Below are positions 2,411-5,422 of a stretch of 43,821 bases of DNA, piece by piece (within the stretch, counting starts at the first letter, position 1; each line of letters opens with the position of its first letter). The position numbers and the translations under genes were made by a program. This DNA comes from an uncultured Clostridia bacterium (lineage in GTDB: Bacteria; Bacillota; Clostridia; Oscillospirales; Acutalibacteraceae), in assembly GCA_946414505.1 (NCBI GenBank), contig CAMKOU010000002.1:1-43821 (forward strand), read 5' to 3'. The notes beneath the pieces were generated by a model. The model was not told where the DNA came from, ran no database searches, and worked only from the letters and a program-made list of their open reading frames with translations.

Positions 2411-2508
2411 GACAGCGGGATGCGAAACCGGCATCGCGGAACCTCCTTCGTTTCCACGGCAACTCCCCGTCCGTGAAACACTTAAACGCGCCGGCTTCTA
2501 CTCTGTGA
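2411..2508 (-). promoter_or_regulatory. THF (tetrahydrofolate) riboswitch
   Basis: Minus strand ACAGAGTAGAAGCCGGCGCGTTTAAGTGTTTCACGGACGGGGAGTTGCCGTGGAAACGAAGGAGG...GCATCCCGCTGT matches the THF-I consensus blocks (GAGUAGA, GCGUUAAGUGU, GGGRNGUNGYC, ACGAA). Confidence 0.9.
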
Positions 2509-2522
2509 ACTTTTTTACGATT

Positions 2523-2552
2523 CTATTATAGCACCTTGTCGGTTTTTGTCAA
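2523..2552 (-). promoter_or_regulatory. Sigma-A-like promoter of the THF riboswitch-folT transcript
   Basis: Minus strand TTGACA-N16-TATAAT (TTGACAAAAACCGACAAGGTGCTATAAT). Confidence 0.8.
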
Positions 2553-2559
2553 GATACTC

Positions 2560-2598
2560 TAGGCAATACCGCATCATTCAGGTGTGCGGTGTTGCCTC
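2560..2598 (-). terminator. Hairpin at the 3' end of the riboflavin transporter gene
   Basis: GGCAATACCGCA...TGCGGTGTTGCC inverted repeat overlapping the stop. Confidence 0.5.
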
Positions 2599-3271
2599 AG
2601 ATGATTTTGGCGAATATCAGGAGCACCAGCAGTAGCGTTGCGACCGCCGCCGCCGACACGATCACGATGATGACGGTGTTGGTTTTCCGGTTGTGGGGGC
2701 TGTCGTTGCTCTCTCTGGTGGGGATCAGCTTGGATTTGCGCAGCGCGGTCACCACCGGCTTGTAGAGCAGCAGCACCAGCGACGCGTTGAGCGCCGCCTT
2801 GATGGCATTGAACGGCAGCAGCAGGGTGGGGATCATGCTCACCACCGCCTCACGCGGCACGCCCATGTAGATCGGCGTCATGATATAGTTCCACAGCAGC
2901 ATCACGGCGATCATCGCCACGGCGCCTGCCACCAGCCCGATGATCGCGCGTGCGATCGTTTTTTTGCGGTAATAAATGACCGAAGCCACGCCCACAAACA
3001 CGGCCGATGCGAGAAAATTCATCAGCAGACCGATAAAGCCCGTGGAGCTGACGGTCACCATCTCCACCAGACAGACGACCAGCGACATCACCAGTCCGGC
3101 GATCGGGTTAAAGATAAACGCGCCGATGGTGAGGATCACATCCTTCGGCTCATAGGTAAGGAAGCCGCCGATGCCCGGGATGCGTAAAAAGATGTCTGCC
3201 GCGACCGCCAGCGCGGTCAGCATCGCCATAATGGCGAGGGTTTTGATTTTGTTTGTTGATTTTGCTGTCAT
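2597..3271 (-). CDS. ribU: Riboflavin ECF transporter S component (RibU-like)
   Basis: MTAKSTNKIKTLAIMAMLTALAVAADIFLRIPGIGGFLTYEPKDVILTIGAFIFNPIAGLVMS...; preceded by an FMN riboswitch. Confidence 0.88.
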   Translation of the reverse strand: MTAKSTNKIKTLAIMAMLTALAVAADIFLRIPGIGGFLTYEPKDVILTIGAFIFNPIAGLVMSLVVCLVEMVTVSSTGFIGLLMNFLASAVFVGVASVIYYRKKTIARAIIGLVAGAVAMIAVMLLWNYIMTPIYMGVPREAVVSMIPTLLLPFNAIKAALNASLVLLLYKPVVTALRKSKLIPTRESNDSPHNRKTNTVIIVIVSAAAVATLLLVLLIFAKII

Positions 3272-3313
3272 AGCAACAACCTCCTAATATTTTTGAAAGG
3301 TTGTTTACGGCTG

Positions 3314-3350
3314 CAAAAAGCCCCGCTGTACCGGAAATACAACGGGGCGT
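3314..3350 (-). terminator. Expression-platform terminator of the FMN riboswitch
   Basis: Minus strand GCCCCGTTGTATTTCCGGTACAGCGGGGCTTTTTGC. Confidence 0.8.
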
Positions 3351-3382
3351 TCACGCGAAAAAAGCCGGATACGGCCAAAGCG

Positions 3383-3498
3383 CGTCTTCTTTCATCCGGA
3401 CTGTAACCGTCGGTGCCTGAATCGCACAGGCTCGGCAGACAAACTGTCTGTTCGTGGACTATACCACCGGTGGAGAATTTCACTCCGCCCCGAAGACA
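3383..3498 (-). promoter_or_regulatory. FMN riboswitch (RFN element)
   Basis: Minus strand TGTCTTCGGGGCGGAGTGAAATTCTCCACCGGTGGTATAGTCCACGAAC...GATTCAGGCACCGACGGTTACAGTCCGGATGAAAGAAGA matches RFN consensus. Confidence 0.96.
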
Positions 3499-3570
3499 AC
3501 CTTCATTTCTATTATATGCGGATTTTTCCGTTTGTCAATAGGCATTTAAAATTCTTTTTCGGAATTTTTA

Positions 3571-3599
3571 TTGACAAGCCCGGCGCATTCCTGTATAAT
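3571..3599 (+). promoter_or_regulatory. Sigma-A-like promoter for the small-peptide RNA
   Basis: TTGACA-N17-TATAAT. Confidence 0.85.
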
Positions 3600-3668
3600 A
3601 CTACCGGATAAGGTGAGCCAAACGACGGTAGGCGGTTAAATCTTTGCCCTCGAAAGGGGGCGTGCCAT

Positions 3669-3737
3669 ATGGAATACATAACGGTTATTATTCTTGCAAT
3701 TGTTTTGTACACAATTTTGGCAATAAAGAAGAACTAA
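3669..3737 (+). CDS. 22-aa hydrophobic peptide MEYITVIILAIVLYTILAIKKN, candidate type I toxin
   Basis: Strong SD (GGGGG, 8 nt before ATG); one predicted TM helix with KKN tail; own promoter 5' and terminator 3'. Not in the ORF track because it is short. Confidence 0.75.
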   Translation: MEYITVIILAIVLYTILAIKKN

Positions 3738-3775
3738 ACCGCCTCGGCAAAGGTACGGTTTAGTTCTTTCTTTTT
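3731..3775. terminator. Bidirectional terminator hairpin
   Basis: GAACTAAACCG...CGGTTTAGTTCTTTCTTTTT; T-rich tract also on the minus strand (AGTTCTTCTTT). Confidence 0.8.
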
Positions 3776-3822
3776 CACTAAACTTTACTTAGGGCTAGCC
3801 GCTTATCGGTTCGCCTTATCTT
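3731..3822 (-). ncRNA. Putative antisense RNA convergent with the small-peptide mRNA
   Basis: Predicted start about 3822 from the minus-strand promoter at 3829-3856, ending at the shared terminator; no ORF. Confidence 0.6.
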
Positions 3823-3828
3823 TCTTTT

Positions 3829-3856
3829 ATTATAGCACATTGCCGGCATTTGTCAA
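3829..3856 (-). promoter_or_regulatory. Sigma-A-like promoter for the antisense RNA
   Basis: Minus strand TTGACA-AATGCCGGCAATGTGC-TATAAT (16-nt spacer). Confidence 0.8.
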
Positions 3857-3858
3857 GT

Positions 3859-3939
3859 CTCTGTCACCATGCAGAGGCTTTTTTACTCTGTTACCATACA
3901 GGGGCTTTTTTACTCTGTCACCATGCAGGGGCTTTTTTA
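3859..3939. repeat. Three tandem 27-bp units, CTCTGTYACCATRCAGRGGCTTTTTTA
   Basis: Units at 3859-3885, 3886-3912, 3913-3939. Confidence 0.9.
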
Positions 3940-3947
3940 CGTTTTTA

Positions 3948-5123
3948 TTACAGCGCCGCGCGCAGGGCTTCGACCTTGTCGGTCTGCTCCCATTTGACGC
4001 CCAGCTCTTCCCTGCCGAGGTGACCGTATGCCGCCAAATCGTAGTACTGCGGCTTTTGCAGCTCCAGCTGGGTGATGATGGAGTGGGGGCGGCAGTCAAA
4101 CACCTTGTTCACCGCTGCGGCGAGCCGCTCGTTGGAATACCATGAGGTGCCGAACGTGTCCACCATGACGGAAACGGGCTTTGCCACGCCGATGGCATAG
4201 GCAAGCTGCACCTCGCACTTGTCGGCAAGGTCCGCCGCTACGATATTTTTGGCGATATAGCGCGCATAGTACGCCGCGCTGCGATCCACCTTTGTCGGAT
4301 CCTTGCCGCTGAATGCGCCGCCGCCGTGACGGGAAAAGCCGCCGTAGGTGTCCACGATGATTTTTCTGCCGGTCAGACCCGCGTCGCCGACGGGACCGCC
4401 GATGACGAATCTGCCGGTGGGATTGACAAAAATCTTGGTATCCCTGAGCAGCTCCGCCGGAATGACGGGATCGATCACATACGCGATCATATCCTTGCGG
4501 ATCTGCTCGCCCGTCACATCGGGGTCGTGCTGGGTCGATACGACGACCGTGTCCACACGCACTGCCTTGCCGTCCTCATACTCCACGGTCACCTGCGTTT
4601 TGCCGTCGGGACGCAGATAGCGCAGCGTGCCGTCCTTGCGCACCTTGGTGAGCTGCTTGGCGAGCTTGTGCGCCAGCGAGATCGGCAGCGGCATCAGCTC
4701 GGGCGTTTCGTTGCAGGCGTAGCCGAACATCATGCCCTGGTCGCCCGCGCCGATCTGATTGTTGCTGTCCGCTTCGCCGTCCTTCAGCTCCAGGCTTTCG
4801 TTGACGCCCATCGCGATATCGTCGGACTGCTTGTCCATCGACACCAGCACGGCGCAACTCTGCGCGTCAAAGCCATAGGCAGGGTCGTTGTAGCCGATGT
4901 CGTCGATCACCCTGCGGGCAATGGACGCGATATCCACCTGCGCGGTGGTGCTGATCTCGCCCATGATGTGCACCACGCCGGTGGTGACGGTGGTTTCACA
5001 GGCGACATGCGCATTTTTGTCCTGCTCCAAAATGCTGTCGAGCACCGCGTCGGAAATTTTATCGCAGACCTTGTCGGGATGTCCCTCGGTCACGGATTCG
5101 GATGTAAATAAAAACTTAGCCAT
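3948..5123 (-). CDS. metK: S-adenosylmethionine synthetase
   Basis: [29 protein letters not shown]...[12 protein letters not shown]...[23 protein letters not shown] riboswitch upstream. Confidence 0.98.
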
Positions 5124-5142
5124 ACTTTCTCTCCTTTAAAAT

Positions 5143-5178
5143 TACCAAAAAAATACGCCCTTCGACCGAAAGGCGTTC
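5143..5178 (-). terminator. Expression-platform terminator of the SAM riboswitch
   Basis: Minus strand AACGCCTTTCGGTCGAAGGGCGTATTTTTTTGG. Confidence 0.8.
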
Positions 5179-5184
5179 ACAAAA

Positions 5185-5276
5185 CTCATCTTCCGGTAAA
5201 ACCGCAGGATTTAGCACCTTGCAATGCAGGTTGCCGGGCTTCACAGGGCCTGTTCCCTCCGCCGCTCTTGATAAGG
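5185..5276 (-). promoter_or_regulatory. SAM-I (S-box) riboswitch
   Basis: Minus strand CTTATCAAGAGCGGCGGAGGGAACAGGCCCTGTGAAGCCCGGCAACC...GGTGCTAAATCCTGC...GGAAGATGAG. Confidence 0.97.
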
Positions 5277-5422
5277 TTGTATTCAACTGGTGTCTATTAT
5301 ATACGATTCGCGCAAAAAGTGCAAGGGGTTTTTGCAAATAATTTGCGGAAATAAATTGTATTGCGGCAGGTTTTGTGATACAATCGGGGTGAATAAATGC
5401 GTGGAGAGCGGCAGTTTTAGTT

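Follow-up and report, generated by a model that had tools for sequence, protein, structure and literature searches.

The window, by which we mean the whole 43,821-nucleotide stretch of DNA analysed here, contains an intergenic module between ribU, a gene for an ECF riboflavin transporter controlled by an FMN riboswitch, and metK, both of which lie on the minus strand. The starts and ends of the module's two RNAs are deduced from promoters and hairpins, and all energies are minimum free energy (MFE) predictions. The features are as follows.

2597-3271, minus strand: ribU-like ECF S-component gene (Pfam)
3380-3538, minus strand: FMN riboswitch with its own promoter, upstream of the ribU-like gene (Rfam RF00050, 105 bits)
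3571-3599, plus strand: toxin mRNA promoter, TTGACA-N17-TATAAT, sigma-A-type, 12/12 consensus
3607-3638, plus strand: predicted 5' leader arm of the panhandle, the tag GATAAGGTGAGCC (3607-3619) plus the conserved GGTAGGCGGTTA (3627-3638), from sequence and fold
3646-3661, plus strand: hairpin sequestering the Shine-Dalgarno sequence (SD), GCCCUC-GAAA-GGGGGC, a predicted fold
3669-3737, plus strand: toxin-like open reading frame of 22 aa, MEYITVIILAIVLYTILAIKKN, preceded by the strong SD AAAGGGGGCG
3717-3822, minus strand: predicted antisense (antitoxin) RNA, ~105 nt, without a long ORF, from promoter plus hairpin; kept in relatives
3725-3775, both strands: shared hairpin, antisense RNA terminator and proximal toxin mRNA terminator (fold z -4.8)
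3792-3815, minus strand: 5' stem-loop of the antisense RNA; the plus-strand complement, 3796-3820, is the panhandle 3' arm
3829-3856, minus strand: antisense RNA promoter, TTGACA-N16-TATAAT with TG ahead of the -10, sigma-A-type, 12/12 consensus
3855-3940, plus strand: distal terminators, a 27-bp hairpin-T unit in three tandem copies (triple repeat 3859-3940) that immediately follow the antisense -35, lie before the metK end and are oriented against rightward transcripts
3948-5123, minus strand: metK (Pfam), convergent with the toxin mRNA

This DNA has few perfect sigma-A-type promoters. The pattern TTGACA-N15..19-TATAAT occurs only four times in the 43.8-kb window (+ 3571, - 3856, - 3538 and - 2552), and two of these four belong to the module; that at - 3538 is the FMN riboswitch/ribU promoter. 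Between 3000 and 4500, five promoter-like sites are found against 1.0 expected. The two convergent promoters proposed in an initial annotation of this DNA are both present, as are the 22-aa reading frame with its strong SD and the hairpin between them, which folds with -21.1 kcal/mol and carries a U-tract on the plus strand. The peptide has a single hydrophobic segment and ends in KKN, and the Lys-Lys codons ahead of the stop also serve as the U-tract of the antisense terminator. The predicted antisense RNA of the window folds with z -3.9, and its terminator loop, CTTTGCCGAG, contains a YUNR motif. No Rfam gathering-score match was returned in the window module or in seven relative loci with modules. 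As a feature of the surroundings, THF, FMN and SAM riboswitch aptamers all sit on one strand within 2.9 kb (2411-5277).

The gene order ribU-module-metK is retained in three other species (G006, G013 and G043), and the ribU-module pair is found in a fourth, at a contig edge. Two irregular loci were also seen. At L040 (G043:C121, 1726-1793), an extra copy of the antisense promoter end lies upstream of the module, joined to an apparent truncated FMN riboswitch. L289 (G052:C64, 1-420) is a 95% identical module that lacks the toxin promoter and leader, such that the FMN promoter region adjoins the ATG; this locus, at the edge of a contig, represents either natural toxin silencing or an assembly effect.

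Searches with DNA and peptide over 98 related genomes found homologues of the window module within the genus; both promoters are kept, which is the conservation that the initial annotation had proposed looking for, and the peptide homologues share 59-95% identity. A sequence-only family model, without base pairs and built from twelve aligned modules, has matches (E <= 0.001) in 37 of the 60 genomes sampled from the genus, in 98 of 297 from the order and in 46 of 300 from the phylum, incomplete MAGs being among them; many of the weakest phylum matches may not be true modules. The 171 model matches yielded 168 modules in which an ORF is accompanied by an antisense promoter. The choice of ORF used hydrophobicity, SD and terminator position, and these features are in that sense partly selected for; a set of 100 modules, non-redundant by peptide, was used for comparison. 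In the ~168 modules the predicted peptide, both promoters, the SD hairpin, the shared hairpin and the antisense RNA are kept together, and the type I toxin-antitoxin layout first suggested for the locus is well supported by this comparison. Since relatives occur across genus and order, the predicted module is not a chance arrangement.

Modules are often present in multiple and tandem copies, in arrays of up to five units with a spacing of ~335 bp (five are consecutive in L080). Another module, divergent from the first, is present in the genome from which the window comes (L288, G000:C1:609-855), with the peptide VAYIFGIVIFTFFIVFIISRNDTKK and with GGTTACAGGGA common to both RNA starts. An exact 19-nt motif from the antisense domain is found in at least 120 stretches of species genomes, which among the matches listed are mainly of Lachnospiraceae and also of Megasphaera and Anaerovibrio. 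Culturable carriers include Butyrivibrio, Coprococcus and Pseudobutyrivibrio (loci L178, L182 and L201). A search for phage and plasmid homologues gave no convincing match. Distant members of the same RNA chassis were also seen outside the order (L158, G526:C9; L159, G474:C1). At L042 (G030:C64, 1701-2210), two modules of opposite orientation and different tags lie ~40 bp apart; the tag of the module at 1701 is common to both of its RNA starts, and the leader of its partner is truncated or replaced.

Across the family, the toxin promoter is the weaker of the two, with a mean score in relatives of 9.8/12 versus 11.3/12 for the antisense promoter, the latter scoring 10-12/12 in 95 of 100 modules. 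The SD is predicted to be paired with a probability above 0.7 in 87% of 97 modules. At the shared hairpin, the antisense side carries 10.5 U per 18 nt and the sense side 8.1, and a YUNR motif is present in the antisense terminator loop of 81% of modules, versus 49% in shuffles. Of 95 modules, 19 have a plus-strand terminator no more than 75 nt from the antisense promoter, directly behind it, with 1.2 expected from shuffles. On the strength of such distal plus-strand terminators, the toxin mRNA would have a long read-through form, in addition to any short form ending at the shared hairpin. In the window itself most of the mRNA may stop before the 3' arm, because the proximal hairpin has a good plus-strand U-tract.

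The initial annotation remarked that both predicted RNAs begin alike, and this turned out to be the central result: GATAAGGYGARCC starts both, at 3607-3619 on the plus strand and at 3820-3808 on the minus strand. In the 100 modules, compared with re-paired controls, the 45 nt that follow the antisense -10 match the leader of their own module above foreign leaders with z 22, and the first 23 of them alone with z 24; a reverse-complement control gives no signal (z 1.0). The tag varies by lineage, being GATAAGGYGARCC in the window, GGTGCTACC in Lachnospiraceae, and GGCGTTGCC, GTAAAGRAACGG or others elsewhere. Since it differs among lineages and yet is common to the two RNA starts of each module, both ends must change together. 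Equality of the two starts means that, on the toxin strand, the mRNA 5' end is complementary to the sequence that faces the beginning of the antisense RNA. In the MFE structure of the rightward window transcript 3607-3886, positions 3607-3619 pair with 3808-3820 (13/13), with a pairing probability near 1, and 3627-3638 pair with 3796-3807 (12/12). The long form of the window mRNA folds with z -7.0, versus -3.1 for the short form.

This predicted 5'-3' pairing is the strongest conserved feature of the module. The family panhandle helix has -42.8 kcal/mol for cognate ends versus -28.7 for re-paired ends (z 30, 0/5000), with a median of 26 bp, and 92% of modules have a helix of 15 bp or more, compared with 56% given a foreign 3' end. 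In 92 of the 100 modules, the toxin strand gives the stronger helix. Transitions between the arm copies are G-U-compatible on the toxin strand in 49 cases versus 10 on the antisense strand (p 3e-7), a count taken from the ungapped 5' arm and not of fully independent events, as lineages share some copy differences; a gapped alignment of the tag gave a weaker bias, from mis-registration. T/C changes are spread over 14 different sequence contexts, and C/T changes are confined to a single one. The initial annotation had the antisense RNA overlap its target mainly at the terminator, whereas the results favour a longer toxin mRNA, one that would span the whole antisense gene and pair its 5' end with its 3' end. 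As the shared starts amount to a 5'-3' panhandle in this longer mRNA, the putative antitoxin RNA would be both antisense to the mRNA 3' arm and a mimic of the leader.

The best explanation for these observations, and one that we consider probable, is a chromosomal type I toxin-antitoxin module with a 5'-3' panhandle mRNA and control by antisense strand displacement. A sigma-A-type promoter would give an mRNA that encodes the 22-aa membrane peptide and has its SD shut in a local hairpin, and a stronger convergent promoter an antisense RNA of ~105 nt ending at the shared hairpin. A fraction of the mRNA would pass this hairpin, reach the distal terminators and close on itself, the 5' leader (tag plus GGUAGGCGGUUA) on the 3' region, to form a panhandle of 25 bp. 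The antisense RNA should be able to take over the 3' arm, because it is the perfect complement of this region and carries the mRNA leader again in its own 5' stem-loop; pairing without the G-U pairs of the panhandle, it would displace the 5' arm from the 3' arm and yield a long duplex, by which the mRNA would be kept untranslated or passed to RNase III. The YUNR loop of the antisense terminator, located on the antisense side here, could begin a kissing contact. Were the antisense RNA exhausted, the peptide would be made and the membrane perturbed. What the sequences show directly is the set of parts, how they are conserved, the complementarity of the panhandle arms and the selection acting on the peptide; the two transcripts, the read-through, the displacement and the toxicity are inferred from them.

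Other modes of action were considered and rejected. Direct pairing of the antisense RNA with the SD is not module-specific (z 0.8-1.5). Pairing between the two 5' stem-loops has a duplex energy z of 3.2, which falls to 0.2 after subtracting self-folding. A switch in SD accessibility on panhandle formation or antisense binding finds no predicted change, the unpaired SD being 0.19 in the long form, 0.16 in the antisense-bound form and 0.15 in the 3'-truncated form. With the SD predicted closed in every state, folding leaves the effect of the panhandle on translation unexplained.

Whether the peptide is indeed a toxin bears on a first alternative, in which the RNAs and their regulation are the same and the product is a regulatory or stress membrane peptide that does not arrest growth. 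The family peptides are under purifying selection, with pN/pS 0.097/0.423 pooled over 27 family groups, a result unaffected by the criteria of ORF choice. The window peptide has no significant Pfam match (Hol_Tox and Fst included) or NCBIfam match. A 31-aa sister peptide starting MEYITV scores 23.2 for Hol_Tox (PF16935), for which the cut-off is 23.3, and three chassis members exceed it: L159, L165 and L096, with 46.4, 44.2 and 32 bits. The L159 peptide, MMNTYETLSLMIMFGMLIIAILGFKREK, is a bona fide Hol_Tox. Sister peptides also show a weak NCBIfam similarity to the competence inhibitor ComI. The predicted architecture is constant and the peptide variable, one chassis carrying clearly different hydrophobic peptides. 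The persistence of module orthologues at the ribU-metK site in several species, after the manner of a housekeeping gene, would suit a regulatory peptide, but such swapping of unrelated hydrophobic peptides, together with tandem arrays, patchy presence and Hol_Tox relatives, is typical of toxin-antitoxin systems, and we regard the regulatory reading as unlikely.

A second alternative holds that the two 5' ends resemble each other because each folds into one and the same local stem-loop, to which a single protein or RNase might bind, with the panhandle as a by-product. There is good support for the antisense 5' stem-loop as such, with a family mean fold z of -2.42 (86% of modules below -1) and module-specific pairing of arm to arm (z 5.5), and its G-C preference could cause part of the wobble bias. 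The mRNA leader, however, forms the stem-loop poorly (mean z -0.66), and the sharing of RNA starts extends 5' of the antisense stem (z 5.1, 0/10000). The wobble bias also persists at positions unpaired in that stem, at 22:0, local A-richness inflating the G/A part of this count and T/C alone giving 6:0. This reading is quite improbable. RNAalifold on the whole antisense alignment, which is too gappy, returned no structure, and pairing was evaluated module by module.

A third alternative follows from the analogy to par/Fst drawn by the initial annotation, that is, short overlapping RNAs which touch only at terminator loops and direct repeats, with no long mRNA. The layout of the analogy stands: like par/Fst, the module has convergent promoters and RNAs, a shared bidirectional hairpin, a small membrane peptide, a 5' stem-loop that hides the SD and a U-turn in the terminator loop. 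The peptide does not fit. Fst-type toxins are marked by a hydrophobic PXXXG(C) motif, a conserved Trp and a charged tail, and the window peptide, as first noted, lacks Fst features, having no Pro, Gly or Trp and no Pfam Fst match. In par/Fst, the initiation site lies in another stretch of complementarity, supplied by the direct repeats DRa/DRb. The toxin leader and the terminator arm do share the direct near-repeat that had been proposed here (GACGGTAGGCGGTTAAATCTTTG at 3624-3646 in the leader), which speaks for the analogy but is short, with a usual core of GCGGTTA and a family mean longest match of 6.5 nt versus 5.7 with shuffled leaders, and it lies away from the initiation site. Inverted repeats dominate over direct ones, and their toxin-strand wobble bias is unexplained by a short mRNA; Fst RNA II, moreover, has ~40 nt, versus ~105 nt for the predicted antisense RNA. 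The pAD1 par locus and the Fst/Ldr family of Firmicutes, which has chromosomal copies too, are described with convergent RNAs, a shared terminator and a closed SD (PMC7472228), and we think it very unlikely that their mechanism operates here.

A fourth alternative, which is highly unlikely, explains the likeness of the two 5' sequences at the DNA level, as inverted repeats (mobile-element ends, a gene-conversion product or sites for a DNA-binding regulator). In its favour, the modules of a genome mostly have one tag in common (similarity 33.9 within genomes versus 12.4 between) and occur in multiple and tandem copies. Against it, the repeats include neither promoter, yet both promoters are conserved along with them; modules with different tags in one genome mostly retain their own pair (8 comparisons); and the G-U bias favours one strand (49:10; helix strength 92:8), which DNA-level causes do not predict. 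Mobile-element ends were rejected on this bias and on the position of the promoters.

Panhandle-based strand displacement, the explanation that we favour, can be set beside other type I systems. The pairs txpA/RatA, bsrG/SR4 and yonT/SR6 of B. subtilis and CD-RCd of C. difficile combine a small membrane toxin with a charged C-terminus and a convergent antisense RNA over the mRNA 3' part (PMC6563280, PMC7699646), and share with the module the small membrane peptide and the convergent antisense RNA. Their toxins are longer (28-60 aa), and the passages cited mention neither a panhandle nor leader mimicry. Type I toxin mRNAs are held inactive by their own fold, later activated, and silenced by antisense RNA (PMC11228461); such self-inactivation is described for hok/Sok and tisB/IstR-1 of Gram-negative bacteria, the hok fold involving the 3' end (PMC4147584, PMC11228461). 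Unlike those antitoxins, which target the 5' region, the window antisense RNA would be antisense to the 3' arm and resemble the 5' arm. Hol_Tox relatives share the chassis, but the family has no defined RNA architecture. With a par/Fst-like layout and a place outside the Fst family, the module is best read, from its sequence and that of its relatives, as a new variant of type I toxin-antitoxin; full-text searches of an open-access library found no description of such a class.

Roughly one third of the sampled order genomes carry modules, often several. The broader proposition, for which we see an even balance, is that of a widespread and undescribed type I class in gut Clostridia, in which one RNA chassis would bear interchangeable membrane peptides, a panhandle mRNA would be controlled through strand displacement by an antitoxin antisense to the 3' arm and copying the 5' arm, and the arms would co-evolve into a lineage-specific pairing code. 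If confirmed, this would give dominant gut bacteria a further major toxin-antitoxin class under RNA control, and the annotation "putative holin-like toxin" in the taxa that carry it would gain a testable control system. It would also offer a clean comparative case of coevolving mRNA ends and a leader-mimicking antitoxin, with strand-specific G-U wobble as evidence of selected RNA pairing.
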